Source of the DNA: Pirellulales bacterium | GTDB lineage: Bacteria > Planctomycetota > Planctomycetia > Pirellulales > Thermoguttaceae | Assembly (NCBI GenBank): GCA_016931075.1 | Contig: JAFGFF010000440.1 | Span: forward strand, 1 to 64,000 | Length of the DNA: 64,000 nucleotides | Direction: 5' to 3' | Shown here: positions 4,011 to 20,004 of the stretch, piece after piece | Layout of the letters: the number at the start of each line of letters is the position of its first letter | Numbering within the stretch: the first letter of the stretch is position 1 | Position numbers and translations under genes: made by a program | Notes under the pieces: generated by a model | Seen by the model: the letters and a program-made list of their open reading frames with translations, nothing else | Databases searched by the model: none | What the model was told of the DNA's origin: nothing

Positions 4011-5543
4011 ATGACCCGCACCGTGTCTCTCAGTCCGGTCACTCGCATCGAGGGACATCTCTCGATCCAGACCGAAACCGAACCGCTGGATGGAAACGAC
4101 GGCGCTTGCCGGGTGAAGGAGGCCCGATGCGAAGGGGAAATGTATCGAGGTTTCGAGAAGATCCTGGTCGGACGCGATCCGATGGACGCGCAGCAGATCA
4201 CGCAGCGGATCTGCGGCGTCTGCCCGGTGTCCCACGGCATCGCCTCGGTCCGTGCCCAGGAGATGGCCTACGGCATTACGCCCAGTGAAAACGGGCGGCT
4301 GCTGCAGAACCTGATCTTCGCCGCCAACCAGATCCAGTCGCATGTGCTGCATTTTTATCATTTGGCCGCGTTGGATTTCGTGGACGTGTCGGCGATTCTC
4401 CAGTATTCGGGCAATGACCGGGGGTTGATTGCCTTGCGCGATTGGGTCAAGGCGTCGATCGCGTCGGGCGAGGTGTTCCCCGCCGCGCCGTTCTTGCCGC
4501 AATGGAAGGCCGACTACGTCAAGGACGTGGACGTCAACGTCTCGCTTCTGTCGCATTACGTCGAGGCGTTGGACATCCGCCGCACTTGTCATGAAATGGG
4601 GGCCGTGTTCGGCGCGCGGCTGCCGCATTCGACGGCCCTGGTGCCCGGCGGATGCACCCAGACGCCGACGCTCGAACGGGTCCTGGCGTATTCGTCGCGG
4701 TTGAAGAAGATCTTCACGTTCGTTCGCGACGTCTACTTGCCCGACCTGGTCGAAGTGGCCAAACAATTCCCCGCCTACTTCGAGATCGGGCGGGGCTGCG
4801 GCAATTTCCTCTCGTATGGCGTGTTCGAGATGGACGCCTCGGGCAACCGGTTCATCAAGCCGGGCGCGGTGATCGACGGCCGTTGGGAGCCGTTCGAGGT
4901 GGATCGGATCCAGGAAGAGGTTCGCCATTCCCGCTATAGTTCGCCCTCTGGTTTGCATCCCTCGAAGGGCATGACCGACGCCTCGCCGGAAAAGTCCGGC
5001 GCCTACAGTTGGATCAAGGCGCCGCGCTACGGACAGCACGTGATGGAGGTCGGCCCGCTGGCGCGCGTGATGGTCAACTACCACGATCCCAGCGGGACCT
5101 GGGTGAAGAAAGAGGTTGATGCTTTCCTCAAGACGCGAAATCTCAAGCCGGAGCAGATGCTTTCCGTCCTCGGCCGGCACGTGGCGCGGGGGCTGGAGGC
5201 GATGTGGTTCGCCAAGCAGGCCGCGAAGTGGCTGGACGAGCTCCATGTCGACGAAGCGCCGGCGCGCGACTTCACCATGCCCAAGGAAGGAACAGGCGTC
5301 GGCCTGACCGAGGCCCCGCGCGGCGCGTTGGGCCACTGGCTGACGATCCGGGACTATCGCATCGCGAACTACCAGTGCGTCGTCCCCACGACGTGGAATT
5401 GTTCGCCGCGGGACGACCGGGGCCAACCGGGAGCGGTCGAACAGGCCCTGGCCGGCGCGACCATCCAGGACCCGAAACATCCGATTGAAATCGGACGCAT
5501 CGTTCGCTCGTTCGACCCGTGCCTCGCCTGCGCGGTTCACTGA
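4011..5543 (+). CDS. [NiFe]-hydrogenase large (catalytic) subunit, naturally lacking the C-terminal peptide
   Basis: A 510-residue subunit carrying the NiFe(CN)2CO active site that splits or forms H2. The N-terminal signature L1 is R66-ICGVCPVSH with C68 and C71; the C-terminal signature L2 is DPCLACAVH with C504 and C507. The overall pattern (SPVTRIEGH near the N-terminus, about 510 residues) fits group 1-type enzymes. The reading frame stops right after the histidine (H510) of L2, codons GCG GTT CAC TGA. Most group 1 precursors carry about 15 more residues there, which an endopeptidase removes after nickel insertion; sensor hydrogenases of the HoxC/HupV type are known to lack them. The strong AAGGAGG site fixes the start. 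It precedes the small-subunit gene, the reverse of the usual order. It should be exported with the small subunit by the Tat pathway. No hyp maturation genes or protease lie nearby. Confidence 0.95.
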   Translation: MTRTVSLSPVTRIEGHLSIQTETEPLDGNDGACRVKEARCEGEMYRGFEKILVGRDPMDAQQITQRICGVCPVSHGIASVRAQEMAYGITPSENGRLLQNLIFAANQIQSHVLHFYHLAALDFVDVSAILQYSGNDRGLIALRDWVKASIASGEVFPAAPFLPQWKADYVKDVDVNVSLLSHYVEALDIRRTCHEMGAVFGARLPHSTALVPGGCTQTPTLERVLAYSSRLKKIFTFVRDVYLPDLVEVAKQFPAYFEIGRGCGNFLSYGVFEMDASGNRFIKPGAVIDGRWEPFEVDRIQEEVRHSRYSSPSGLHPSKGMTDASPEKSGAYSWIKAPRYGQHVMEVGPLARVMVNYHDPSGTWVKKEVDAFLKTRNLKPEQMLSVLGRHVARGLEAMWFAKQAAKWLDELHVDEAPARDFTMPKEGTGVGLTEAPRGALGHWLTIRDYRIANYQCVVPTTWNCSPRDDRGQPGAVEQALAGATIQDPKHPIEIGRIVRSFDPCLACAVH

Positions 5544-5550
5544 AAACGTT

Positions 5551-5586
5551 CCCCTCGCCCTCGGGGAGAGGGGTTGGGGGTGAGGG
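5551..5586. repeat. Dispersed palindromic repeat, copy 1 (GGGAGAGGG/GGGTGAGGG type)
   Basis: The sequence is CCCCTCGCCCTCGGGGAGAG followed by GGGTTGGGGGTGAGGG. A CCCCTC...GAGGGG hairpin is followed by a GGGGGTGAGGG tail. It starts 7 bases after the hydrogenase large-subunit stop and lies in the 125-base gap before the small subunit, where it could form an mRNA hairpin. Related copies occur near 16320 and 61318. Confidence 0.75.
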
Positions 5587-5668
5587 CGTCGCCCAATACG
5601 CCAAGGTTCATCCCGCATGACCGAAAAACAAAAACAAACTTCCTTCGCATACTAGGGAGCCATTCGTC

Positions 5669-6628
5669 ATGGGTACGTGGAATCGAAGAGACTTTCTCAA
5701 GGCAGGCGCGAGTCTGGCGGCCGGGATGGGCCTGGGCTCCCTGCACGGCGAGGCGTTGGCCGAGGGAATCGAGGCCATCCACGCCGGAAACGCCAAGGTC
5801 CTCTGGCTGACCGCCATGTCGTGCAGCGGGTGCTCCGTGTCGTTGCTGAACACGGAGAATCCCGGGCCGGTCGAGCTGCTGACCGAGATTATTTCACTCG
5901 TTTACCATCCCGTCCTTTCCGCCGCGCAGGGAAGCACGGTCGGCGAGGTCATCGAGAAACTCACCAAGGCAGGCGGATACTACTTCGTCATCGAAGGCGC
6001 TATTCCAGCGGGCATGAGCACCGCTTGCATGTTGGAAGGCCAGCCGCTGACCAACCATCTGCCGAAGATCATTCGCAACGCCAAGGCCGTGATCGCCGCG
6101 GGCACGTGCGCGGCGTTCGGCGGCATTCCGGCGGCCGAGGGAAACCCGACCGGCGCGGTCTGCGTTCGCGACTACATGACCCAGCAGGGTCTATCGGTCG
6201 CGGGCCGCCTGGTCAATTGCCCCGGTTGCCCCACGCATCCGCAGTCGCTCATCGGCACGGTGGCCTACGTGGTCGCCAAGGGCTATCCAGCCGTTCATCC
6301 GGAGTTACTCACGCCAGACATGTACTTCCGCCATTCGGTCCACGACGAATGCCCTCGGTTCCACTATTGGGAGAAGAGCCAATTCGCCGAGAAGTTCGGC
6401 GACGAAGGATGTCTTTTCAAGCTGGGTTGTCTGGGCCCGCTGAGCCACACGCATTGTCCACGGTCGCAGTGGAACGGCGGGGCGAACTGGTGCATCCGCG
6501 CCGGGGCGCCCTGCACGGCCTGCACGAGCGAGAATTTCGCCAAGCACCGCGACTTTCCGTTCTACCGAAAGGGCGAAGCCAATCACCCGGTCAGTTACAC
6601 CGAAGCGCAAAGGGAGGGTGTCCGATGA
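5669..6628 (+). CDS. [NiFe]-hydrogenase small (electron-transfer) subunit, Tat-exported
   Basis: A 319-residue subunit with the twin-arginine motif R6-R7-DFLKAG and an Ala-rich h-region, so the folded heterodimer should be exported to the periplasm. Fe-S ligands can be placed: proximal cluster C52, C55 (SCSGCS), C147 (AGTCAAFGG) and C187 (NCPGCPTHP); distal cluster H225, C228, C248 and C254; medial cluster C263, C275, C282 and C285. C275 (NWCIRAG) occupies the place where standard group 1 enzymes have proline, so the medial cluster is predicted to be [4Fe-4S] instead of [3Fe-4S]. There is no C-terminal hydrophobic helix, so no direct membrane anchor. The stop codon overlaps the ATG of the chemoreceptor gene (ATGA). 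No cytochrome b gene follows. The product could be a soluble periplasmic uptake enzyme or a sensor. Confidence 0.95.
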   Translation: MGTWNRRDFLKAGASLAAGMGLGSLHGEALAEGIEAIHAGNAKVLWLTAMSCSGCSVSLLNTENPGPVELLTEIISLVYHPVLSAAQGSTVGEVIEKLTKAGGYYFVIEGAIPAGMSTACMLEGQPLTNHLPKIIRNAKAVIAAGTCAAFGGIPAAEGNPTGAVCVRDYMTQQGLSVAGRLVNCPGCPTHPQSLIGTVAYVVAKGYPAVHPELLTPDMYFRHSVHDECPRFHYWEKSQFAEKFGDEGCLFKLGCLGPLSHTHCPRSQWNGGANWCIRAGAPCTACTSENFAKHRDFPFYRKGEANHPVSYTEAQREGVR

Positions 6629-8322
6629 AGCGATTCAACATTCACAGCGTGGCGACGCGGATCGGCGGCGCCATCTTGGGCGTTTTCGTGCTGGCCACGC
6701 TGGTCCTTTCCGGCCTGCAGCAGTATCTCTATCAAAAGAACGTCGACGAGGTTCTTACCCACCTGCACGAGGCGACCTTGGATCTGAAACGCCAGGACGC
6801 CCGGGACGTGCTCAGCGAAGTCGAGACGGCCACTCGTGGGTCGTTGCAGCGGGGTGAGTTCGACAAGTTCATGAACTTCGCCAAGGAGCAAGGCAAACTC
6901 AAGGAAATCCGCGAGTTCTCCTTCATCGGCAGCAATCGCAAGGTCGAGCTGTCGTCCAGTCCCGGCCGGGTCGGGGCCACGCTGGCCGACGACATCTGGA
7001 AGCAGGCCGAAAACAACCACGACGCCTTCGTGATCGAGTCCGACGAGGCCTTCTCGTTCTACCGACCGATCCACGTCGACGCCGACATGCACCGGCTCTA
7101 TCCCAAACGTCCGATCGGCCAGCTCTACGGCGTGCTCTATCTGGAGTTTTCCAAGGAGAAGATCAACCAGATGGTGGCCGACGCCGAAGGGGCCTGCGCC
7201 GCGTCGACCCACAAGTCGTTCGGCATCCTGGCCGTGTTCATGCTGATCGCCTCGGCGGGCGTGATCGCCGTGGCCTGGTTCGTCTCGCGGCGGATCACCC
7301 GGCCGATCGCCGAGGGCGTCGCCTTCGCCCAGAAGATGGCCGACGGCGACCTGACCCAGACGCTGCACATCGCCGGCAAGGACGAGATCGCGCAGCTTGC
7401 CGCGGCGCTCAACACGATGGCGTCGAGCCTTCGGGCCATGTTCGGCAACGTCCGCGACGCGGCCTTCTCGCTGTCGGGGTCTTCGACCGAGTTGACGCAG
7501 ACGTCGACGCAACTGGCCGCCAGCGCTGAGGAAACGACGGCCCAATCGACCAGCGTGGCCGCCGCCGCCGAGGAGCTTTCGGCCAACATCCACAACATGG
7601 CCAACGCCACGGGACAGATGTCGGAAAACGTCCGGACGGTCGCTGCCGCGGCCGACCAGATGGCCACGAGCATCGGCGAGGTGAACGAGAACACCAACGA
7701 GGCCGCCCGGGTTGCCGGCCAGGCCAATCAGCTTGCCACCGCCAGCAACGAGCGGATCGGAGCGCTCAGCACATCGGCCGAACAGATCGGCAAGATCGTA
7801 GGCATCATCCAGGACATCGCCGAACAGACGAACCTCCTGGCCCTGAACGCCACGATCGAAGCCGCCCGGGCCGGCGACGCGGGCAAAGGCTTCGCCGTCG
7901 TCGCCACCGAGGTCAAGGACCTGGCCAAGCAGACGGCCACCGCCACCGAGGATATCGCCCAACAGGTTGACGGCAACCGGCGCCTGATCGTCGACACCGT
8001 CTCGGGCATCCGCGAAATCAGCGAGATCATCGAGCAGATCAACCGGGTTTCCGAAACGATCGCCACGGCGGTCGGCCGGCAGCGCGAGATGACCCAACAG
8101 ATCGCCCAGAACATCGCCGACACGTCGAAGATGGCCGAGTCGGTCTCCGACGGCATCGCCCAATCGGCCTCGGCCAGCCAGGAGATCAGCCGGACCGTCA
8201 CCCACGTCGACACGGCCGCGCGCCAAACGGCCGAAGGCGCCACCCAAACCCAAACCGCCGGCCGCGCCCTGGCCGGCCTGGCCGACCAGTTGCAGTCGAT
8301 CGTCGATCGGTTCCACGTGTGA
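6625..8322 (+). CDS. Methyl-accepting chemotaxis protein translationally coupled to the hydrogenase
   Basis: 565 residues starting at the ATG that overlaps the small-subunit stop (ATGA), with AGGGAGGG 6 bases upstream. TM1 is about residues 12-30, the periplasmic domain 33-197, TM2 198-221, HAMP 222-275 (RRITRPIAEGV, KDEIAQLAAALN), followed by a long coiled-coil hairpin with the conserved tip near 399-434 (IAEQTNLLALNATIEAARAG) that binds CheW and CheA. The periplasmic domain looks like a Cache-type alpha/beta fold (FSFIGSNRKVELSSS, PIGQLYGVLYLEF) and has no CxxCH haem motif. No CheR-docking pentapeptide is present at the C-terminus. Known role of the family: controls CheA kinase activity from periplasmic signals. 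Inference: its signal is the activity or redox state of the co-expressed hydrogenase. Other che genes are not in the window. Confidence 0.95.
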   Translation: MKRFNIHSVATRIGGAILGVFVLATLVLSGLQQYLYQKNVDEVLTHLHEATLDLKRQDARDVLSEVETATRGSLQRGEFDKFMNFAKEQGKLKEIREFSFIGSNRKVELSSSPGRVGATLADDIWKQAENNHDAFVIESDEAFSFYRPIHVDADMHRLYPKRPIGQLYGVLYLEFSKEKINQMVADAEGACAASTHKSFGILAVFMLIASAGVIAVAWFVSRRITRPIAEGVAFAQKMADGDLTQTLHIAGKDEIAQLAAALNTMASSLRAMFGNVRDAAFSLSGSSTELTQTSTQLAASAEETTAQSTSVAAAAEELSANIHNMANATGQMSENVRTVAAAADQMATSIGEVNENTNEAARVAGQANQLATASNERIGALSTSAEQIGKIVGIIQDIAEQTNLLALNATIEAARAGDAGKGFAVVATEVKDLAKQTATATEDIAQQVDGNRRLIVDTVSGIREISEIIEQINRVSETIATAVGRQREMTQQIAQNIADTSKMAESVSDGIAQSASASQEISRTVTHVDTAARQTAEGATQTQTAGRALAGLADQLQSIVDRFHV

Positions 8323-8360
8323 CGCCAGGGTGAATTAGCCGGCCAGCAGGCCGCCGGAGG

Positions 8361-11300
8361 TCACTTTGCCTCGAAGGGAGAAGCAGCTCCGGCGGCCCTG
8401 GTCTTCGTGCCCGGCGGCGTTGGTTTCAATGCGGCCTTAAGACTGGCGGCCAGCAGTTTTGCTTCCTCGCGGCTGGCGCAGTCCAGGGAAATCGGATTGG
8501 TGAACGAGCCGATCATGCTTGGAAAATAATCAACGACCACGTCATCCACCAGGACGGCGAACGCGCGGCCTTGGTTGGCCTTGGAGAGTGCCGCGAGTCT
8601 TTCGATTCCCGCCGTGTCAAATTGAATCACGACTTGCGGAACGCCCTTGCTGTTCGTACCCAGTGAGCACCCCGTGATGCCCCAATCGTCGCGGCGGGCG
8701 AGCATCGTTTCACTAGGCTGGTCAAATAACAGAACGTAGCGCCGCAGGTCGCGGCCCTTGACCGTTTTGGGCGGGCCGAGCATCGGATGCGGAAGATACA
8801 GCCAGCCGTCGCGCTGGGCCGTGACGGACTCCTTCGGCGCGTCGGTGGCCAACTCGAACCAAGCCGGCAAGTCGGACTCTTCTGGCTCCACCAAGCCGGC
8901 CGGATGGATCTGCCCCGTGGACACATTGCCCACCGGGATCAACTCGGGCGGGATCGTCACCTTCGTTTTCGGCGTCCCGCCCATCACCCCGAGGTCGTCG
9001 CCGCCCACAAGGCCCATCCCGCCTGGCTGGCCCAATGCGCCGTCGCCGGCGATCTTGCTAGAAACCGTTTCAGCCGCGCTGATGCGGATTTTTTGGAGTT
9101 GGGCCTTGTCGAGCGGCCGGTCGTCGGGCATGTCCACGAGAACGAAAGGAGTGGGTTTCAACTTGGTCGGTTCGACGTTCTTTTCGCGGAAGAAATACAC
9201 CGTCGCGGGAACAAGGGGCCTCGGATCGTCGGAGACGCGGATCTCCAAGAAAGTCGAATTCCATGTCCCGCCGGTCCGCTCCTCGCGGAGTTTAGCCAAG
9301 GATTGGAAAGGCTCGCGAGGGCCGTATTTCTTCAGATCGTCGAGGGCCCACTTGATGGCCGTCTTCAGATTTTCCGTGCCCTGCGGATCGTTCGGAGCGT
9401 TGTCCGGAAAGACGACTCGGAAATCCAGCCGGCGCGCGGTCGCCTGCGCGGCAAGGCCCCCGAGCCGAACCTGCTTCGCGCCGGCTTTTCGGGCGAGATA
9501 GGCAACCCGTTGGACCTCGCCGAAGGACAGCCCGGCGACGCCCTCGATCAGGACGCTCAAGTCGGGCTGCTTCTCAAGTCGTTCGGCCACGAGCTGTCGG
9601 AAGCTCTCGGCGCCGTGGATCTTGTCGTCGACGAAGATCCGGCCCTCCGTGCGAAGGAAGGCGACCAGCCGGTTGGGCTCCTGGGGCTTGGCGCGTTGAA
9701 GCCTCCAGCGGACTTCGCCCTTCCGGAGCGATTCGCTCCGTTCGTCGGCATCGCTCGGTGGTGAAAGCGTCCCGTCGAAGAACCGGATCGTCAACCGGTC
9801 GCCGTCGAGCTTATAGACGCTCTTTGTGGTGCTATTGCTCGACCAACCCACGTCGAGATGGATCGCCTTCGGCTGGGCCCGGGGATCAATCGCATAAACG
9901 ATCCGGAAAGACGAATAATCCGTGAGATCGCCGAACTGGCTGGGTTCGATGCGGATTCTGCGATGCCCATGGAAGTACCAGCCAAAGGCATCCATGGAAT
10001 CGGTCCCGATTCGCAGGCCTACCGGAGACCGTAACGCTGGCCAACTGCCTGGCTTGGTCGACTCGGGATTCTCGGGCGGGCCCTGTTCGACGGCCAACAT
10101 GTTCCATTTGCCCTGGATGGCGGTTTCGTCCGGGTGAGGCCCCTTTGTGGGAATCCATTTGAGGACGATCAACTGTTGCCCTGTTCCCAATTCGGCCCAG
10201 AACGCCTCCGGCCGCTTGGTTTTCTTATCAGTTGCGTCAACCAGGCAGATGGTCAGCCGGTCGCCTTCGAGTTTGCAGATGCCGCGCTGGAGGAACCCCG
10301 GAATGACTCGCTCGTCGTTCTGGAAGTCGATCGGCGTGGGCCGAAGGTCCGTATTGACGCGATACTCGCCCGTGCGGAACACGGTTTTAGGACCAAACAC
10401 CTTCAGTTTCGAGTCGCTGATGAGGATCTTCGTTCCCTTGACCAGTTCCTCCCGCGTGGTCGTCGCGTCGTGGCTCGCCACCAGATTGGCCCTCGAAGTC
10501 ACGTCCCCGTTGTCGGTCAGGCTGACGACCTGCCAGAGCCCCTTGAGGGCATCGCCGTCCTTGAGGGGAACGACCGCGGAAGCGACCGCCGGGTCGACCG
10601 AAGCATACGCGGGTGGTTCGAGCGGCGCGCCGATCACTCGGCCGGGCGGCGTCGGCGTCGGCCCCGTGGGCGGAATCTTCGGCGCGGACGAAGACACCCG
10701 CGTCAATTCAAGGAGCGCTTGCGCGTTCTTGCCGGTGGATGAAAACTCGGTCGGACGCGGTTTTCCCGGCTTGGGAACTGGCTCGGAAAGACACAGCCGC
10801 AAACGATTGCCGTGAAGATCGTAAATCCCGGCGACCGTCATGTCTGTGTCGATGACGATATTGATGTGCTTCGGCTTCTTCGAGGGGTCGAGCGTGTAGG
10901 AGTGGAACTCATAGCTTCCGACGGACGTATTCCACAAGCCAAGGGTCGTCGCGTCGATGAGCGCCTGGCTGCCGGCGTAGTCCTCCGCCGTGACGTCGCG
11001 TCCTTCGTGAACCGCCTTGACGACCCTCCACGTCCCGACGATCGCCTTGCTGTCCGGTTTGGCCGGCGGCTTCGTGCGCGAGAGAACCAACTCGAACTGA
11101 TTTCGCGTCAGTTCGGCGTCGAACGAGGGAGTCCGGTGGAACATCGGCGTCGACACGTCGGGATCCGGATTGGAGAATGTTCCAATGTCCGCGCGGAGCG
11201 TCAGTTGCTCCCCGTCGAGGCGGTAGACGCAGCGAAGCCCGGAGATAGAGATGCCGCTGACGCTCAGCCCGTTGAAAACTTCGGGGGGGCTCAGCGCGAT

Positions 11301-14300
11301 GGTCCCGGGCCGGCTCAGCGGGTTGATCGCGCACTCCATCGGCGGCGACGTGAACAACGGCCCGGTGAGCACGCTGACATGCTTCCCCAGCGCCAGCCCG
11401 TCGATTTCGCTCACAAGCCCCAGGCAATCTTTCTGACTTTCCGGCTCTCTCGGGTCGGGAATCCGCCCACACGTCCCGCGGACCACGTACCACCGGCCGA
11501 GTATCGCCTTTTCGTCCGGGTGAGCCTGGACGGGGCCAGTCCGGCGAAGCACGATCCGTTCGTTCGGCCTATCGTTGACTCCAGGCCGGAAACCCAGCGG
11601 CAGGCCGACGAACAGGGAGAGCGTCAGTTCGTCCCCCTGCCGTTTGCAGGCGCCCGAGAGTCGCTCCTCGTCCAACCGCGAGGGCGCGACGTCAATCCAC
11701 GTTGGCGACCTGTCGGCGTCGAGCCGATACCGCATGGCCCTGGCCGGCAAACGGTCGCTCCAGACCGTCATCCGATCTTCCGTGATGACGACCCGAGCCG
11801 CCTTGAAAACCTTTTCCGCCGTCGGCAGCGGACGGTCCGCGTCGCCCAGATCGGCCCCCGGCGTGATTTCGTAAGTTCCCAGCACATGCGACGTGCCCGC
11901 CTTGTCCGTATCGCATCGCACCACCTTCCACTCGCCCTCGATCGACGTCTCGCGCGGCGGATTGGCTTGAGCCTGCGCCGCCCCCGGCGGTCCGCCGGTC
12001 GCCGCGGAATCGCCGGCTGGCAAGGGCCGCGGGAGAAACAAAACACTCACCGGATCTGGCACGGACGGGGAAACACGTTCCAACTCGAACAGGAGGTTTC
12101 CGCCCTTTTCGTCCGACGAAAACCGGGTCGGACGAGGCTTTCCAGGCTTCGGAACGCACAGCCGCAACCGGTCGCCCTGGAGGTCGTAGATTGCCGGCGT
12201 AGCCACCGCGTTGTTGGTGATCGTGTCGATATGCTTCGGCTTTCGCGTGGGATCAAGCGAGTAAGCGGAAATTTCCCCGTCGCTGTGTCTCATGCCGTCC
12301 TTCCAGAAACGAATGATCTTCGAGTCGACGATCATGCCCGCGTCGGAAAAATCCTGAGCGGTGACGTCGCGGCCTCCGTCGAACGCCTTGACGATTTTCC
12401 ATGTTCCGACAATCGCCTCCCGGTCGGGCTTCGGCGCGCGGGTCAAGACCCATTCGTACTGGCCCTTGCTCAACGGCGCGTCGAAGGCCAAGGGCGGGCT
12501 GTCGGACGAGGCGGCTCTTCCGTCCGATGGCAAGGAGAAACGAAGCGTCAACCGGTCGTCCTGAATCCGGTAGATCCCGCTGAAGGGCCCCCCAATGCCG
12601 GTAGGAGAGTTCAGCGTGCTCAGGCCTGTCAGGGTCAGACAAAATCGGCCGGGTGCGGCCAGCGGATTGAACGCGACTCGCCCTCCGGCCAGTTCGACGA
12701 CCAGCGGCGTCGCCGGCGCGGCGGGAGTCTTGGCCGATTCCTTCTCCGCTGACGCTCCCACGGTTGACGATTCAGGGACAGGTCCGTTCATTTGGAACGT
12801 CAATCGCCCGAGCGTGATTTCCTTCACCGCGGGAAGAAATTCCTCGACGGGAAAGGTTCCTCCCCAAAAGCCGGCGTGTTTGCTCTGAGTCGGCGACAGA
12901 AGCACGCTCCACCCGTGCGAGGGCTCCTTGGAAGAAGCGAAGCTGGCTACGCGCCATTTCCCCTGGAGGGCCTTGATGTCGGGATGCACCTTGGCCGGGC
13001 CAAGACGCCGCAAGACGATCAACTCGCGCGACGAGCCCATCTCCGGCCAGAACTCGGTCGGGCGGTGTGTTTTTCCGTCCGGGCCTGCGTCGTAACTCAC
13101 GCAGAGCGTCAGCCGGTCGCCCTCGCGCTTGCAGATGCCCAGGGTCCCGTCGTAGTAGTCCAGATCGATCAGCATGGGCGAGGCATCGGGCTTGAGCCGA
13201 TATCGGGCGTTGAAAAACTGGCCGTTCTGGCTGCCCAGGACTTGGAAGGCGTCCTTGTCGATCACAATCCGGCTGCTCTTGAAAAGCTGCTCGCGCGTCG
13301 GGTTGTTGTACGTCTCGGGCATGCCTTCCATGCGATACAAGCCCAGAAATTGTGAGTAGTACGGGTTGGCCGTCTGAAGATCGACGACTTCCCACGTGCC
13401 CTCGATCGAAGTGGTCGAGTCGGGCGATCGGGACGCGTCGGTCGGAGACGGCTCGTCCGGTTTGACCGGGGCCCCTTCGCGGGAGAGGACCAACTCGTAT
13501 TGGCCCACGCGCAACGGCGCATCGAAAGCCAGCGCCTGATATAAATCGAGGAAGAGTTGGCTTCCCGCGTTTGCCACGACGAAGCGAAACGTCAACCGAT
13601 CGCCTTCGATCCGGTAGATCCCGTTCAGCGAGCCTGGTCCTGGTCCCATCCCGACGCTGAGCGAGAACCGGCCGCCAGGGACAAGCTCGAACCTTCCGGA
13701 CCGAGTCAGGGGATTCATCCTCAGGGTTCCCGCCATCAATTCGCCGGGCGACGATTTCGTCGGGGCGCTCGGAGCCTCGTCTTCCTTTTGCTTTTCCTTC
13801 TGCTTCTGCCTCTTCAACATTTTCGATTCGTTCGACGGCTCTTCCAGCGCCCCGACCATGCTGAAGGCCCGCTGATCGAAGTGGATTTCCTTCACCGAGG
13901 AAAGGTACTGATCCGTGCGCCAAGTCCCTCCCCAGAGAGGTCCAACGAATCTGCCAGGCTGGAATCCGCCCGGCTGATCAGGATCGAACTGCCCGACACT
14001 CACGCAACTTTGTTCATCGACTTCCTTGTTGCGAGTGAAACTCACGACGCGCCATTTGCCCTGGAGGGCCAACTGATCGGGATGGGTTTCGACCGGCCCG
14101 ACTCGTCGCAGGACGATCAACTCGCGAAAGGAGCCAACTTCCGGCCAAAACTCCGTCGGGCGGGACCTAACCGTGTTTTGCGTCGGCTGTTGCCATGTCG
14201 TACCGAAACAAAGCGTCAGACGGTCGCCCTCGCGTTTGCAAATGCCCAAGGTTCCGCCGTTGTAGTCGAGATCGATCAGCATCGGCGAGGCGTCGGGCTT

Positions 14301-16169
14301 GAGTCGATATTGGGTGTCGAAAAACTGGCTGTTTTCACCACCGAGGATCCGGAAAGAATCCTTGTCGATAATAACCCGAGTGTTCTTGAGAAGTTGTTCG
14401 TGTATCGGGATGCCGGGTATATGCGTCTCCGGCCTGCCCTCCACGCGATACAATCCGAAGAATTGCGAATTGCCCGGATCCGCGGTCTGGAGATCGACGA
14501 CTTCCCACATGCCTTCGATCGAGCGTGACGAGTCCGGCGAAGGCGACGCGTCGGTTGGAGTGCCTGGCGATCTTACTTCGATCCTCTCGGGACCGAATGT
14601 CATGTTCGTGCCGTTCTGGACGTTCATGGTCACCTTCTGGCCGTTGCGGTAGACGGTGATCAGGATGCCGAACGACAGGCCGATCGCGCCGAAGAAGAAG
14701 GCGGTGGCCACCAGCGCCGCGATCCATCTACGACGACCGCCCGAGGCGGACGGAAGGGGCGCCGGGGCGGGCTGGGTCGCCTCGGCTCGGCGCAACAGCC
14801 CGGGCAGGTCGTGGCCCTTCGTGTACAGTTCGAGCGCGGCGGCCACGTCGGCCGGGGTCGAGGGTCGGGCGTCGGGCGATTTCGAGAGCATCCGGTTCAA
14901 CAACGCGACCAGGCCACGCGGAAGGTCGGGCGCCGACTCGTCGATCGGCGGGACGGGCCGGTCGGCATGGGCGGCCATCTTCTCGAGCGTGCCCCGGCAG
15001 TCGGTCCGGTCGAACGGGGCCGTGCCGCACAGCAACTTGTAGAGCGTGCAGCCCAGGCTGTAGATGTCCGCCCGGATATCGACCGCCCGACTGTTGTCGG
15101 CTTGCTCCGGGGCCATGTAGTCAGCCGTGCCCATGATCTGGTTCGTCGCCGTCAGGTCGACCGGCCAGGGGGTCTCGACCTCGGCGTTGGATGGAGACGT
15201 GCTCGCGCCGTCGGACTTTGAAAGATCGGGGGGAGAACCAGCCTGATTCAGGTCGCTCTGCCCCCCGCCCGTTCCCTCGGAGATTGAAGGAGAGAGAGCG
15301 TCCTCGTCCCGGACGTCGTCCGGCTGGGGATGGGTTGTCGAGGAACGCTCACTTCGGTTCGCCTCCAAAGAGGAACGGTGATTGGGAGGATCATCTTGGT
15401 TTGTTTCAGAGGTCTTGGGAGACTCGGCCAGTCGGGCCAGGCCCAAGTCGAGGATCATGAGCTCGCCCGAGCGAGTGAGCATCAGATTCGACGGCTTGAC
15501 GTCGCGGTGGACCAGGCCGTACTGATGGGCGTAGTCCAGCCCGAGGGCCGCCTGGCGGATCAGTTCGCACGCGTCGGCCGTTCGCAGCGGGCCCACGCGT
15601 TGCGAGAGCCGGCCCAGGTCCATGCCGTCGACGTGCTCCATGACCAGCACGGGCGTGCCGTCGATCTCGCGGGCGTCGAAGGCGTGGACGATCGCCGGGT
15701 GGTCGAGCCGGCCGATGGCCTTCATCTCGCGTTCGAATCGGGCAACCGCCTGCGGGTCGTGCATCCGGTGCTTGGCGATCACCTTCAGCGCGACGATCCG
15801 GTCGAGCTTGGTGTGCAGCGCCTTGTAGACCGTGCCCATGCCGCCCCGGCCAAGCCGCGCGAGCAGCCGGTACTCGCCCAGCGTGCCCAGGGCCAGCGAT
15901 TCGGCCGTGCCCTCCGCGGGACGTCCGGCCACGGCCTTCGCCCGGGCCAGCGCCTCGTCCAGATGCGACTCGGCCGCCAGGGGATCGTCGTCATCGGCCC
16001 AACGAAGCTTCCCGACGAGCGTGTCTTCATCCTCGTCGAGCGTGGCCAACAAGGCCTGGCAGGTCGAATCGCCGTCGATCTGTTCGGCCACCCGTTCGGA
16101 ATCCTCGTCCGAGAGCCGGCCCAGTGCATAGGCCAACAGTTTCTCGCGATCGGGGGGATTGAGAGACAT
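8361..16169 (-). CDS. Giant membrane serine/threonine kinase with ten TIGR03067-like repeats and ExbD-like and SecD-like C-terminal domains
   Basis: 2602 residues from the ATG at 16169, which has AGAGGAG upstream; a start 27 bases further out is less likely. Residues 1-60 resemble an anti-sigma-type N-terminal domain without zinc ligands (LLAYALGRLSDEDSERVAE). The kinase domain is about 100-455: GRGGMG 108-113, K129, HRDVKPSN with D223, DLG 241-243 in place of DFG, and APE 353-355. An insert of about 90 Ser/Pro/Asp-rich residues (250-340) lies in the activation segment. One helix is at 482-505. Outside the membrane come ten repeats of the TIGR03067 type (xxGxWxVV ... GDRLTLC/R), then an ExbD/TolR-like segment (DDKIHGAESFRQLVAERL, SFGEVQRVAYLARKAG) and a C-terminal SecD P1-head-like segment (FDTAGIERLAALSKANQGR, SREEAKLLAASLKA). 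The ECF sigma factor gene lies just upstream on the same strand. Proposed role: signalling from envelope to transcription. Confidence 0.92.
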   Translation of the reverse strand: MSLNPPDREKLLAYALGRLSDEDSERVAEQIDGDSTCQALLATLDEDEDTLVGKLRWADDDDPLAAESHLDEALARAKAVAGRPAEGTAESLALGTLGEYRLLARLGRGGMGTVYKALHTKLDRIVALKVIAKHRMHDPQAVARFEREMKAIGRLDHPAIVHAFDAREIDGTPVLVMEHVDGMDLGRLSQRVGPLRTADACELIRQAALGLDYAHQYGLVHRDVKPSNLMLTRSGELMILDLGLARLAESPKTSETNQDDPPNHRSSLEANRSERSSTTHPQPDDVRDEDALSPSISEGTGGGQSDLNQAGSPPDLSKSDGASTSPSNAEVETPWPVDLTATNQIMGTADYMAPEQADNSRAVDIRADIYSLGCTLYKLLCGTAPFDRTDCRGTLEKMAAHADRPVPPIDESAPDLPRGLVALLNRMLSKSPDARPSTPADVAAALELYTKGHDLPGLLRRAEATQPAPAPLPSASGGRRRWIAALVATAFFFGAIGLSFGILITVYRNGQKVTMNVQNGTNMTFGPERIEVRSPGTPTDASPSPDSSRSIEGMWEVVDLQTADPGNSQFFGLYRVEGRPETHIPGIPIHEQLLKNTRVIIDKDSFRILGGENSQFFDTQYRLKPDASPMLIDLDYNGGTLGICKREGDRLTLCFGTTWQQPTQNTVRSRPTEFWPEVGSFRELIVLRRVGPVETHPDQLALQGKWRVVSFTRNKEVDEQSCVSVGQFDPDQPGGFQPGRFVGPLWGGTWRTDQYLSSVKEIHFDQRAFSMVGALEEPSNESKMLKRQKQKEKQKEDEAPSAPTKSSPGELMAGTLRMNPLTRSGRFELVPGGRFSLSVGMGPGPGSLNGIYRIEGDRLTFRFVVANAGSQLFLDLYQALAFDAPLRVGQYELVLSREGAPVKPDEPSPTDASRSPDSTTSIEGTWEVVDLQTANPYYSQFLGLYRMEGMPETYNNPTREQLFKSSRIVIDKDAFQVLGSQNGQFFNARYRLKPDASPMLIDLDYYDGTLGICKREGDRLTLCVSYDAGPDGKTHRPTEFWPEMGSSRELIVLRRLGPAKVHPDIKALQGKWRVASFASSKEPSHGWSVLLSPTQSKHAGFWGGTFPVEEFLPAVKEITLGRLTFQMNGPVPESSTVGASAEKESAKTPAAPATPLVVELAGGRVAFNPLAAPGRFCLTLTGLSTLNSPTGIGGPFSGIYRIQDDRLTLRFSLPSDGRAASSDSPPLAFDAPLSKGQYEWVLTRAPKPDREAIVGTWKIVKAFDGGRDVTAQDFSDAGMIVDSKIIRFWKDGMRHSDGEISAYSLDPTRKPKHIDTITNNAVATPAIYDLQGDRLRLCVPKPGKPRPTRFSSDEKGGNLLFELERVSPSVPDPVSVLFLPRPLPAGDSAATGGPPGAAQAQANPPRETSIEGEWKVVRCDTDKAGTSHVLGTYEITPGADLGDADRPLPTAEKVFKAARVVITEDRMTVWSDRLPARAMRYRLDADRSPTWIDVAPSRLDEERLSGACKRQGDELTLSLFVGLPLGFRPGVNDRPNERIVLRRTGPVQAHPDEKAILGRWYVVRGTCGRIPDPREPESQKDCLGLVSEIDGLALGKHVSVLTGPLFTSPPMECAINPLSRPGTIALSPPEVFNGLSVSGISISGLRCVYRLDGEQLTLRADIGTFSNPDPDVSTPMFHRTPSFDAELTRNQFELVLSRTKPPAKPDSKAIVGTWRVVKAVHEGRDVTAEDYAGSQALIDATTLGLWNTSVGSYEFHSYTLDPSKKPKHINIVIDTDMTVAGIYDLHGNRLRLCLSEPVPKPGKPRPTEFSSTGKNAQALLELTRVSSSAPKIPPTGPTPTPPGRVIGAPLEPPAYASVDPAVASAVVPLKDGDALKGLWQVVSLTDNGDVTSRANLVASHDATTTREELVKGTKILISDSKLKVFGPKTVFRTGEYRVNTDLRPTPIDFQNDERVIPGFLQRGICKLEGDRLTICLVDATDKKTKRPEAFWAELGTGQQLIVLKWIPTKGPHPDETAIQGKWNMLAVEQGPPENPESTKPGSWPALRSPVGLRIGTDSMDAFGWYFHGHRRIRIEPSQFGDLTDYSSFRIVYAIDPRAQPKAIHLDVGWSSNSTTKSVYKLDGDRLTIRFFDGTLSPPSDADERSESLRKGEVRWRLQRAKPQEPNRLVAFLRTEGRIFVDDKIHGAESFRQLVAERLEKQPDLSVLIEGVAGLSFGEVQRVAYLARKAGAKQVRLGGLAAQATARRLDFRVVFPDNAPNDPQGTENLKTAIKWALDDLKKYGPREPFQSLAKLREERTGGTWNSTFLEIRVSDDPRPLVPATVYFFREKNVEPTKLKPTPFVLVDMPDDRPLDKAQLQKIRISAAETVSSKIAGDGALGQPGGMGLVGGDDLGVMGGTPKTKVTIPPELIPVGNVSTGQIHPAGLVEPEESDLPAWFELATDAPKESVTAQRDGWLYLPHPMLGPPKTVKGRDLRRYVLLFDQPSETMLARRDDWGITGCSLGTNSKGVPQVVIQFDTAGIERLAALSKANQGRAFAVLVDDVVVDYFPSMIGSFTNPISLDCASREEAKLLAASLKAALKPTPPGTKTRAAGAASPFEAK

Positions 16170-16319
16170 GATTGTTCTCCTCTGATCGGGGGGCATTGCC
16201 GTTGGGCGCCAGGACCGGCGAACCAGGACGTTGGCGTCAGCCTGTCAGTAGAGAGAACGTCACGGGTTGACACGAGTTGGCCTTGGACTCAGTACGGGAA
16301 CTGAGAATGCCCACCTTTA

Positions 16320-16356
16320 CCCCCGGCCCCTCTCCCAGAGGGAGAGGGGAGGTGAG
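16320..16356. repeat. Dispersed palindromic repeat, copy 2
   Basis: CCCCCGGCCCCTCTCCCAGA followed by GGGAGAGGGGAGGTGAG. The CCCCTCTCCC/GGGAGAGGGG arms give a stem of about 10 bp. It touches the stop codon of the ECF sigma gene and separates it from the giant kinase gene, so it sits between two genes that are probably functionally coupled, as copy 1 does. Confidence 0.75.
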
Positions 16357-16980
16357 CTAACCCAAGAGCCCGCCGAGTTCGCGGCGGAGGCGGCGTAGGA
16401 CACGGCTTTTAGCCTTGTAGACGGCGGCCAGGGTCATGCCCAGTTCGTCGGCCACGTCGGAAGGGGGGCGGCCGTCGACCGTGGTTCGCCAAAAAGCCTC
16501 CCAAGTGCGGTTCTCGAACTCGGCCCGGACCAACTCGAGACCACGTCGCGGGAGCGACCGCTCGGCCTCGGCGATTTCGGAGGGCTCGATCGGCTCGGGC
16601 ATCTGCTCGATCTGCTGCCGAGCATCGGTGCCGCCGAACGCTTGAGGATGGCGGCCCTGGCGGCGGAAGTGGTCGCGGATCTTGTTCCGCGTGATCGTGG
16701 CCAACCAGGCCGTGAAGCTGCCTTGCCCGTTGCGGCGAAAACCTTGCACGTGCGTGGCGACCGCGGCAAACACCTCCTGAACCAGATCGGCCGTGTCCTC
16801 CGGGCCCACGCCCCAGCGTCGACACCAACGGTAGACGCTCGGACCGTACAGATCGACCAGCCGCTCCCACGCCTCGGGCCGCTGAGCTTGCACGCGTTCC
16901 AACAGGGTCGACGAGATCGAACCGGGCTGGCCACCGGGCGATCGGTCGGAGGAGGAGACGGGCTGGGGGGCGGGGACCAT
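16357..16980 (-). CDS. ECF-type RNA polymerase sigma factor (sigma-70 family)
   Basis: About 207 residues from the ATG at 16980; an upstream TTG at 16992 is possible. Sigma-2 lies around residues 30-105 (WERLVDLYGPSVYRWCRRWG, DTADLVQEVFAAV, FTAWLATITRNKIRDHFRR) and sigma-4 at the end (TVDGRPPSDVADELGMTLAAVYKAKSR). Sigma-3 is absent, as expected for ECF factors. It directs RNA polymerase to a regulon that cannot be named. It precedes the giant kinase on the same strand with 187 bases between them, and the kinase has an anti-sigma-like N-terminal segment. Planctomycetes are known for ECF factors linked to serine/threonine kinases, so kinase-controlled release or phosphorylation is likely. Confidence 0.92.
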   Translation of the reverse strand: MVPAPQPVSSSDRSPGGQPGSISSTLLERVQAQRPEAWERLVDLYGPSVYRWCRRWGVGPEDTADLVQEVFAAVATHVQGFRRNGQGSFTAWLATITRNKIRDHFRRQGRHPQAFGGTDARQQIEQMPEPIEPSEIAEAERSLPRRGLELVRAEFENRTWEAFWRTTVDGRPPSDVADELGMTLAAVYKAKSRVLRRLRRELGGLLG

Positions 16981-17183
16981 CAACACACCCAAGAATTGAG
17001 ACCGTGAGCACGTCGAGACTGCGGATTAGACTTCGGGTCTCGATCCGTTCCGTCCTCCATCCTACCAAGGCGGGGCGAAGATGGCCAGACTCGCGGGGTC
17101 GGGCGGAGAAGGCCGGGCCTTTGACTTGGGACCTCCAGGTGAGTATGGTTATCTGCTTGCGCCAGCCTGCGGAAAGAGGCTGA

Positions 17184-18215
17184 ATGGCGCCTACGTCCCA
17201 CCTCACCGCATCCCGGTCTCCAGCCGTGGTTCAAGATCTCCAGGCTATTGACGTTGCACATCGTGCCCCGCCGGTCGGCTCACTCGTTTGGGGGACCGCC
17301 TGCTGCACGGTCGCCGCGTTAGGCTACGCTTGTTCCAACGTTTGTCTCCGGAACCAGGCCACCGTGTCCGATCCCGCGTGGGTGACTTGCATCAAGGGAT
17401 CGGTTTCGATGGTGGCCATTGGTCCCTGGGTGATCTATCGATCTTGGGTGGGGCGGTCGGTGCTGCCACGGGGGCGGACGCTCGTGTTGCTGCTGTTGGG
17501 ATCGGCCTTCGCCCAATTTGGAGGAAATCTGGGTTTTCAGTACGCGCTGGGAACCGTCGGTCTGGCCGTGACCATCTCGGCCGCATTCGGCACGATGTTG
17601 GTGTCCAGCGCGATCCTGGGCCGATTGGTGTTGGTCGAAAGACTTTCTCGACAGTCCATTTTGGCCGTGACCCTTTCAGTCGGAGCCGTATGCCTGCTTG
17701 GGCTGGGCTCGGCTACGGGAAGTAAACCGGCTGTGGACGCATCGCTGGCCAAATGGCAGATCGTCCTGGGATTGGCGACCGCCTGTGTGTCGGGCGTCGC
17801 CTATGCCACCATGGCCCTGGTGATCCGCTCGGTCGTGTCTAAGTCGACCTCGACCGTGGTCGTCGTCTTTATTAGCACCACTTTAGGGGCCGTTTTCCTT
17901 GGTGCTCTGAGCCTCGCGAGGCTTGGCCCAGAGGGCATCTTGGCTACCAACTCAGGTGACTTGGGCATCATGCTCACGGCCGGCGGATTCAACCTGGTGG
18001 CCTTCCTTGCCCTGGTCAAGGGGTTACAGCTCACAACTCTCCTCCACGCCAATGTCGTCAATGCATCACAAGTCGCCCTGTGCGCCACTGCCGGTATTGC
18101 CCTTTTTGGGGAATCTGCACGACTAGCCGTCGTCGGGGGTGTAGTCCTAACGATTGTAGCGGTCGTACTGGTTGATCGGCCTGACGACGCGCGAGAAGAC
18201 GCTGCACGGGAATAG
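17184..18215 (+). CDS. EamA/DMT-superfamily transporter
   Basis: 343 residues with about ten hydrophobic helices arranged as two homologous halves: the first starts at SLVWGTACCTVAALGYACSN, the second around WQIVLGLATACVSGVAYATM. This layout is typical of drug/metabolite-transporter permeases of the inner membrane, which export small metabolites or amino acids. The substrate cannot be inferred. The first 30 residues are polar. It is divergent from the sigma factor gene across about 200 bases that must hold both promoters, and it stands alone, with a long gap after it. Confidence 0.85.
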   Translation: MAPTSHLTASRSPAVVQDLQAIDVAHRAPPVGSLVWGTACCTVAALGYACSNVCLRNQATVSDPAWVTCIKGSVSMVAIGPWVIYRSWVGRSVLPRGRTLVLLLLGSAFAQFGGNLGFQYALGTVGLAVTISAAFGTMLVSSAILGRLVLVERLSRQSILAVTLSVGAVCLLGLGSATGSKPAVDASLAKWQIVLGLATACVSGVAYATMALVIRSVVSKSTSTVVVVFISTTLGAVFLGALSLARLGPEGILATNSGDLGIMLTAGGFNLVAFLALVKGLQLTTLLHANVVNASQVALCATAGIALFGESARLAVVGGVVLTIVAVVLVDRPDDAREDAARE

Positions 18216-18969
18216 GCCGCCAGCGGTAACTACACGGTGGTGATCTTTTTACCGGTACTTATTACCACTCAGGATAGGTATATTCCAGTCCTTCGTAGCG
18301 GTATTAATCATCATCCAAATCGACTCCAATAGCATAAACACCCAGAAAGGCAACCTTCGAACCCCATCTCAATGGGGATTCCTCTGTGGTGTTCAGAGAA
18401 CTCCAGATGGATGCTGAAGCGGTGGGGTTACGACGCCTCATGCCAGCCGAACGTGGTGTGAATAGACAACAGAAATGATAGGGGCTCCGGTTCGGGCAAG
18501 ATGGCATAAACATCGACAGGATCATGGTTTAGGAAACCAGGGAAGAAGAGAGCGATCGTGTTGGCACCAGGTTTGCCCATGGTCGGTGGTGACGCGTCAG
18601 CGGCTTGACATTATGGCGCGGTTGAATCATGCTGAGAACAATAGGCTGGAGTATAAGCGGTCTACGTTTGGAGCGTCTCATCTTCCAATGATCCAATGAT
18701 CGCGCCGCGATTATTGAGCGGGAATAGACGCGACAGAAGAGGGACCGCAGCTCATTTTGATTTGCGTTCTCGCCGATCAACTCGGCCTGCCCACGGCCCC
18801 GTCACCGGGGGTGGCGGGTGTAGGGGCGGCCAGAGCCCGCCTTGTTGTTTCATCGCGCGACGGTCTTTTCAGAAAGAGAGTGGGTTTCACGCGATCGCAC
18901 GGGGGTGCGATTGACACCATCGTGGTCCTTAAAAGAAAGCGCGTCGAAACCAGCTTCGCGCGGCCAACC
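18216..18969 (+). other. Long intergenic region before the exosortase
   Basis: About 750 bases without a convincing gene, clearly more A/T-rich than the coding DNA on either side. A consensus-like -35 hexamer TTGACA is at 18605-18610, but no good -10 is at the right distance. A 73-codon antisense frame near 18304-18525 has no ribosome site or recognisable protein features. The region marks the left boundary of the exopolysaccharide locus and probably holds its main promoter or remnants of an insertion. Confidence 0.5.
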
Positions 18970-20004
18970 ATGCAGACAACGACAGCAACAGTGCCCCAAG
19001 ACCAGAAGAAGATGCCACCGGCGATGATTATCGGTGGGATCGCTTTGGTAGCGATCTTTCTTGTGGGCTATTTCGAGACATTTGTTGGTTATTTGTTTCC
19101 GCGCTGGTGGTATGAGATCGACTACAATTATTGCTTCTTCGTTCTGCCCTTTGCGATCTTTCTCGCATGGGACCGGCGCGAGATGATGGAGGATATCACG
19201 TCTGAGGGGAGTTACTGGGGTCTGATCCCAATTCTGGTGGGTGCGGGAGTATGGTGGTATGCCTCGTATGAATGCCGGCCATGGGTGGTCGCGGTTTCGA
19301 TGCTGCCGCTGATTGCAGGAATGGTGCTGTTCATTGGCGGGTGGCGCGCCGCGCATTGGTTGTGGCCTTCCGTGCTGTTTCTTGGATTTATGTTTCCACT
19401 GCCGGGTGGATTTGCCGGAAAACTTCGGCTTCAACTTCAGGAGGTTGGAACCCAGGTCAGCGTGTTCACACTTCAGACCATTGGGATTCGGGCAGTCGCC
19501 GAGGGGAACACGATTGTCACCCCTAGTGCCAAGCTCGGCGTGGTCGAGGCCTGCAGTGGTATTCGGATGTTGATGTTGTTCTTTGCTGCCTGCATCGGGG
19601 CTGCCATGTTCATTCGGCGAGACATGTTGACGCGGATTCTCATCGTGCTCAGTGCAGTTCCTATTGCGATCATCGCCAATGTAACGCGGATCACGGTGAC
19701 GGCACTTCTGTACGACATGACCAGCCCGGAGTTGGCGGAGCGTGTCTTTCACGATTTGGCCGGCTGGTTCATGATGCCATTTGCAATTGTCATTCTCTGG
19801 GGTGAGTTGGCATTGTTTGATCGGCTCTTTGCCGCTCCGGAGCGAGAGTCGCCCCTTGCGTTCAATCCGTTGATAGGCGGTGAGCCTGTCAACTCGGCTC
19901 CCGCGCGCCGTGGGGAAAAGAGGGAAACACCCCTTGCAAATCCATTGGCGGGTGATAGGTCTGCCAGTTCGGCCCCCGCGCGACGCAGGGATGGAGAACC
20001 GTAG
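18970..20004 (+). CDS. Exosortase (exosortase/archaeosortase family)
   Basis: 344 residues from the ATG at 18970; the frame is open further upstream, but those 71 residues are not exosortase-like. It has about eight membrane helices and the catalytic residues of the family: C195 in VVEACSGIRM, R240 in IANVTRIT and H261 in RVFHDLAGW. The family is a cysteine transpeptidase that processes PEP-CTERM-type surface proteins at a C-terminal sorting signal. The next genes encode an autokinase, a WecA-like enzyme and an EpsI-like protein, the usual company of exosortases in exopolysaccharide loci. The last 50 residues are an imperfect tandem duplication (PLAFNPLIGG..NSAPARR and PLANPLAGD..SSAPARR) not typical of the family. 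No protein with a clear PEP-CTERM signal is seen in the window. Confidence 0.93.
   Translation: MQTTTATVPQDQKKMPPAMIIGGIALVAIFLVGYFETFVGYLFPRWWYEIDYNYCFFVLPFAIFLAWDRREMMEDITSEGSYWGLIPILVGAGVWWYASYECRPWVVAVSMLPLIAGMVLFIGGWRAAHWLWPSVLFLGFMFPLPGGFAGKLRLQLQEVGTQVSVFTLQTIGIRAVAEGNTIVTPSAKLGVVEACSGIRMLMLFFAACIGAAMFIRRDMLTRILIVLSAVPIAIIANVTRITVTALLYDMTSPELAERVFHDLAGWFMMPFAIVILWGELALFDRLFAAPERESPLAFNPLIGGEPVNSAPARRGEKRETPLANPLAGDRSASSAPARRRDGEP

Follow-up and report, generated by a model that had tools for sequence, protein, structure and literature searches.

The window analysed here, a 64,000-nucleotide stretch of a Pirellulales genome, encodes a 2602-residue protein in which an anti-sigma-like domain, a Ser/Thr protein kinase domain and one membrane helix are followed by ten TIGR03067-type modules, a homologue of the ExbD periplasmic domain and a homologue of the SecD P1 head. 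This protein is probably a single-pass envelope-sensing kinase that controls the ECF sigma factor encoded next to it, with the borrowed domains serving as binding modules. Sigma-linked sensor kinases are a known planctomycete family, in which this ectodomain combination represents a new arrangement. A first-pass annotation of the window had described one polypeptide of this length joining a kinase, a helix, ten repeats and two tail segments, and profile searches bore that description out.

The gene occupies a single open frame of 2611 codons on the reverse strand (window 8361-16196), and its ATG at 16169 stands just behind AGAGGAGAA, giving a product of 2602 aa in agreement with the earlier reading. 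The features of the kinase and its neighbouring sigma gene are collected in Table 1. An Rfam scan of window 5000-19000 returned no match. Loci and genomes of relatives are cited below by our own handles (L and G numbers).

Table 1. Features of the kinase gene and the sigma factor gene upstream of it, in window coordinates; residues refer to the kinase product.
Feature	Residues	Position	Strand	Basis
ECF sigma factor gene, directly upstream of kinase		16357..16992	-	Sigma70_r2, TIGR02937
Transmembrane Ser/Thr kinase, whole gene	2602 aa	8361..16169	-	ORF, translation, hydropathy
Anti-sigma (zf-HC2-like) N-terminal domain	5-81	15927..16157	-	NF052375, alignment
Protein kinase domain	98-448	14826..15878	-	PF00069 E=2.6e-47
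Ser/Thr/Asp-rich insert in activation segment, 96 aa	250-345	15135..15422	-	
Single transmembrane helix	486-504	14658..14714	-	hydropathy 2.26, next best 1.36
TIGR03067 module R1, type A		14085..14537	-	E=3.1e-6
TIGR03067-like module R2, type B, low-complexity insert		13425..14084	-	E=2.9e-4
TIGR03067 module R3, type A, 66% identical to R1		12987..13424	-	E=1e-7
TIGR03067-like module R4, type B, resembles R2		12429..12986	-	E=0.012
TIGR03067 module R5, type C, with proline-rich linker		11961..12431	-	E=6.4e-16
TIGR03067 module R6, type A		11523..11957	-	E=3.8e-7
TIGR03067-like module R7, type B		11061..11522	-	scores to R2/R4/R10
TIGR03067 module R8, type C, with proline-rich linker		10566..11060	-	E=2.5e-17
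TIGR03067 module R9, type A		10137..10562	-	E=8.9e-11
TIGR03067 module R10, type B		9681..10136	-	E=2.1e-7
ExbD/TolR periplasmic-domain homologue, no transmembrane part	2161-2236	9462..9689	-	PF02472
RLDFRVV, counterpart of LEFR(I/L) strand before SecD P1 head		9408..9428	-	alignments
Linker, weakly predicted alpha/beta part and Gly-rich stretch	2255-2440	8850..9407	-	
SecD P1-head homologue	2441-2582	8424..8849	-	PF22599, PDB profile, Foldseek

Within the cytoplasmic half, residues 11-81 match the NF052375 anti-sigma factor model weakly (E=8.9e-5). The H-x3-C-x2-C motif of this domain reads Q..D..C in the window protein, with H replaced by Q, the first C by D and the last C kept. Most sampled relatives retain the zinc ligands in a motif of the HLESCPDC type, and the alignment shows it unaltered in several of them, L193 and L088 included; a zf-HC2 domain is detected in L088 and L193. 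In the sub-group of the window protein and L087, the His and the first Cys (window residues 25-40) are missing. With these zinc ligands lost, the window domain is at most a putative sigma binder. The catalytic motifs of the kinase appear intact by inspection (GRGGMG, K129, HRD, DLG and APE); DLG stands where the Hanks-type motif is DFG, and the VAIK lysine, HRD and APE are all present. Ser and Thr account for 26 of the 96 residues of the activation-segment insert, which is far shorter in L087.

The sigma gene product matches Sigma70_r2 (E=5.9e-17) and TIGR02937 (E=8.3e-23), and the pairing with the kinase recurs: ECF sigma homologues of 38-79% identity occur at 14 other related kinase loci, directly upstream of the kinase in 13 of them. 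At L100 the homologue lies ~8 kb from the kinase; one further distant match was found in L116, and an ECF sigma fragment precedes the L193 kinase. Most homologues share a Ser/Thr run N-terminal to region 2, which, judged from sequence, could be a phosphosite. Region 2.2 of the window sigma is acidic (DTADLVQEVF). For Ser/Thr kinases encoded beside the sigma factors of planctomycete groups ECF59/61/62/217, a role as activators has been proposed; phosphorylation and activation of the sigma factor by the kinase have been demonstrated for the ECF43 pairs EcfP/PknT and EcfK/PknS (PMC8999054, PMC13147305). Sigma and kinase are encoded together in the ECF43 pairs, as they are in the window; however, ECF43 sigmas lack the acidic DAED motif, whereas the window sigma has DTAD. 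ECF43-type activation was set aside on this ground: the EcfP mechanism, in which phosphate stands in for the missing acid, does not simply transfer to a sigma factor that retains DTAD.

The gene and domain plan is otherwise that of the planctomycete ECF-linked Ser/Thr kinases (ECF59/61/62/217-type; the WD40, TPR and SUMF1 kinases of PMC11032199): an anti-sigma-like N-terminus, a Hanks-type kinase, one helix, a large and variable extracytoplasmic part and an ECF gene directly upstream. The accessory domains of such kinases are predicted to be periplasmic across Planctomycetota (PMC11032199). What differs is the ectodomain, which in the window consists of TIGR03067 pairs together with ExbD-like and SecD-head-like domains; the names TIGR03067, ExbD and SecD-head are absent as accessory names from the survey's main text. 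Within the main texts searched, no report of ExbD and SecD combined with a kinase in planctomycetes was found.

Several other elements lie around the sigma-kinase pair. The gap between the two genes holds a dispersed palindrome, CCCTCTCCC-N3-GGGAGAGGG (window 16328-16348), whose core has 168 copies in the genome with one mismatch allowed and none for the reversed control; peptides resembling a repeat of this kind (PLPSGEGPGVR) occur within the L193 and L088 frames. An exosortase (EpsH) gene is found nearby at 18757-20004. On the other side, a methyl-accepting chemotaxis protein (HAMP+MCP, 5677-8322), its end convergent to the kinase, overlaps the frame of a NiFe hydrogenase small subunit gene at 5669-6628.

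The extracytoplasmic half is dominated by the TIGR03067 modules. The whole protein matches the TIGR03067 model with E=9.7e-77 and 254 bits, against a curated cut-off of 40.15 bits. Taken singly, nine of the ten modules match (E 2.5e-17 to 0.012); R5, R8 and R9 exceed the cut-off on their own, six others fall below it, and R7, with no direct match, joins through its similarity to R2, R4 and R10 (local scores 95-97, compared with a best of 53 among 300 shuffles). The ten motif starts listed at the first pass are located at residues 554, 705, 925, 1071, 1256, 1413, 1559, 1713, 1878 and 2021, and the count of ten stands. Pairwise scores separate type A (R1, R3, R6, R9), type B (R2, R4, R7, R10) and type C (R5, R8). 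Along the chain the types run A B A B C A B C A B, which may be read as cassettes AB ABC ABC AB; R1 and R3 are 66% identical, R5 and R8 48%. The protein differs from the TIGR03067 proteins whose model it matches in having ten copies in tandem, drawn from three subtypes. The predicted structure of one A-B pair (pTM 0.68) is mostly beta, and its closest Foldseek matches are the fatty-acid-binding barrels of the calycins (FABP/lipocalin), a likeness that amounts to a weak barrel match (E=3.8e-3, prob 0.99, target TM ~0.4-0.5). Lipocalin_4 scores above its cut-off in L118. The literature searched contained no paper on TIGR03067. Two other TIGR03067 proteins of the source genome (L025:4672-7691 and L026:5505-6839) look secreted by eye, their TIGR03067 part being followed by what looks like a TolB-like beta-propeller region.

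Beyond the modules, the tail contains real homologues of the soluble parts of ExbD and SecD, matched separately from TIGR03067 and by independent routes. For the ExbD/TolR-like segment proposed at the first pass, PF02472, a PDB profile search, hhalign and Foldseek agree. The PF02472 match (E=5e-4, 20.5 bits) lies under the curated cut-off of 25.4, as does the ExbD match of L118; hhalign against 20 real ExbD domains from the host family gave 96.5% probability, covering the whole fold at 24% identity. The SecD P1-head-like segment is likewise upheld by PF22599 (SecDF_P1_head, residues 2501-2579, E=9.7e-5, 22.7 bits; 28.5 bits in the genome frame search, above the cut-off of 27), the PDB profile search and Foldseek. 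A profile built from the window tail together with three relatives retrieved SecD (5xan 3.6e-12, 3aqo 8.2e-9) and ExbD (7ajq 0.0021, 8pek 0.0034) from the PDB sequences. The tail model, weak overall (mean pLDDT 53), notably so beyond the ExbD and SecD domains, and better in its ExbD part (~70-89), gave the ExbD periplasmic domain 8pek (7.9e-5) and SecDF P1 3aqo (9.9e-5, rmsd 1.5) at the top Foldseek ranks. Profile, PDB-sequence and fold searches together rule out that the segments are TIGR03067 variants. The ExbD-like segment sits just ahead of the LEFR strand, the place of the P1 base in SecD; its reading as a diverged P1 base was rejected, that comparison reaching 47% and matching the LEFR strand only, versus 96.5% for ExbD.

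Fold and profile follow the ExbD/TolR periplasmic domain (8pek, 8p9r, 5by4) over its whole length, but the window domain sits inside a kinase and lacks the N-terminal helix that bears the proton-site Asp; it is a homologous domain, not an ExbD. By hydropathy no membrane helix precedes it, the one helix of the protein being located near the kinase. The second segment resembles the SecD P1 head (3aqo, 5xan) in fold, profile and the LEFR-type strand before it; unlike SecD, the window protein has no P1-base match, and the six-helix transmembrane channel is absent. ExbD is part of the Ton motor and the SecD head part of the Sec export pump. The first-pass annotation had emphasized this origin in proton-driven machines: the homology holds, yet it extends to soluble periplasmic parts only, and since the proton-carrying helices of both proteins are missing, no proton-driven function is implied.

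A search of 100 related genomes for the tail located it in six others; a genome contig scan with the tail as query found no relative, and the kinase half was used as query instead. In another genus, L118/L019 encodes a kinase, a helix, DUF1559 and two successive units of A-B, ExbD-like domain, linker and SecD head, with the linker conserved in order. The order A-B/ExbD/linker/SecD is kept across genera at ~25-33% identity, and its presence in a second genus means that the cassette is no one-off fusion. L087/L020 has a kinase, a helix, DUF11, A-B and a SecD head, with no ExbD. In L021, L022 and L023 the SecD head is carried by PEGA proteins that lack a kinase. Of 119 family genomes, only two, the window genome and G005, contain the fused ExbD-like module. 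Reading of the sequences also placed the SecD head in a DUF1080-like protein and in small proteins that are probably secreted; L074 and L064 have a SecD-head module beside DUF1559, L074 with an M56/BlaR-like peptidase region as well. The segments had been called unusual on a kinase; with SecD-head modules scattered among planctomycete secreted and sensor proteins, they are less isolated than that.

With an A-B pair as query against 397 genomes of the order, the strong matches were the window, L087, L118, G035 (the same gene as L088), G039 (L193) and G002 (L194). L193:1136-5953 (-) is a sigma-type kinase that combines two A-B pairs with an HlyD/MFP adaptor domain (HlyD_D23 at 37.6 bits, against a cut-off of 30); L194:747-2858 (+), a gene cut at the contig start, has A-B and an HlyD/MFP efflux-adaptor-like domain; L088 has a kinase, two A-B pairs and LRRs. 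In the kinase tree, all five TIGR03067 kinases fall into a single group (support 92/95), inside which L118, the window and L087 fall together (85/64). Four of the five bear a piece of an envelope machine: ExbD and SecD in the window and, twice, in L118, SecD alone in L087, and HlyD/MFP in L193. For eight other sampled sister kinases, Pfam lists WD40, LRR or laminin-G in the ectodomain, or lists nothing there, and ExbD, SecD or MFP pieces occur in none of the eight. This clustering of the A-B pair kinases, with an envelope-machine piece in most of them, is new.

Taken together, a model for the window kinase emerges, in which kinase activity, sigma control and ligand sensing are inferred steps. 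The extracytoplasmic half, ~2100 residues long, would read an envelope signal. The lipocalin-like TIGR03067 pairs may act as ligand- or protein-binding barrels, and the ExbD-like and SecD-head-like domains at the far end as extra modules able to bind a peptide strand or a polypeptide. Such contacts would alter the oligomeric state, or the strain across the single helix, and so switch the kinase; the cytoplasmic half, anti-sigma-like domain and kinase together, would then control the sigma factor encoded just upstream, which would be released, phosphorylated or both. The E. coli ExbD domain recruits the TonB strand at its dimer groove (PMC10907165) and ExbD touches peptidoglycan transiently (PMC10771500); by analogy, a strand- or wall-binding role for the window domain is a guess. 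The SecD P1 head is discussed together with exported chains in two reports (PMC11470409, PMC7793623).

An unlikely alternative is that the borrowed domains act as bait. They would be replicas of envelope parts that the cell itself uses (ExbD, SecD head, MFP adaptor, pseudopilin-like DUF1559), carried in the ectodomain so that whatever binds, jams or attacks the real machine is sensed, or surfaces by which the kinase docks on the Ton/Tol or Sec machine at work and senses what state it is in. The contrast between the TIGR03067 kinases and their sampled sisters fits this, as do the recruitment of the TonB strand by real ExbD (PMC10907165) and the discussion of the SecD P1 head with exported chains (PMC11470409, PMC7793623). 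The sample is small, however, being five related proteins; non-kinase proteins also contain SecD heads and DUF1559, which may be no more than abundant planctomycete modules, and the divergence from true ExbD is large, unlike a recent decoy. Somewhat less probable still is an extension to the whole kinase group, by which ExbD, SecD head, HlyD/MFP and pseudopilin-like DUF1559 would serve as baits that can replace one another on a common lipocalin-like scaffold, reporting machine state or attack to a dedicated sigma factor. If true, bait kinases would be a bacterial counterpart of integrated-decoy receptors, a subject on which the literature search found loosely related papers only.

We think it improbable that the ectodomain serves chiefly as a surface structure for adhesion or spacing, with the ExbD and SecD ends as inert fusion leftovers: it is very long and repetitive, and the identities within types A and C point to growth by cassette duplication, but the retention of the cassette order between genera suggests that a folded unit is maintained, and the sigma-kinase synteny speaks for signalling. 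That the gene is a metagenome assembly chimaera or fusion artefact, a reading invited by the MAG-like source assembly (6.06 Mb, 491 contigs, the window being positions 1-64000 of one contig) and by relatives that are likewise Pirellulales or Planctomycetia MAGs, is close to refuted: the ORF contains no exact DNA repeat of at least 20 nt, which makes repeat collapse unlikely, third-position GC is high over its entire length and codon-position GC even throughout, and the same domain joins recur in an independent genome (L118), with a partial set in L087.

Planctomycetes possess many membrane kinases linked to sigma factors, for which, to our knowledge, hardly any input has been described. For the envelope-sensing kinase favoured here, the ectodomain includes domains, the ExbD-like and SecD-head-like ones, that have relatives with solved structures and known partners, and its input can therefore be guessed and tested. 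The TIGR03067 kinase group shows how a sensor ectodomain is assembled, with envelope-machine modules swapped onto a common scaffold.
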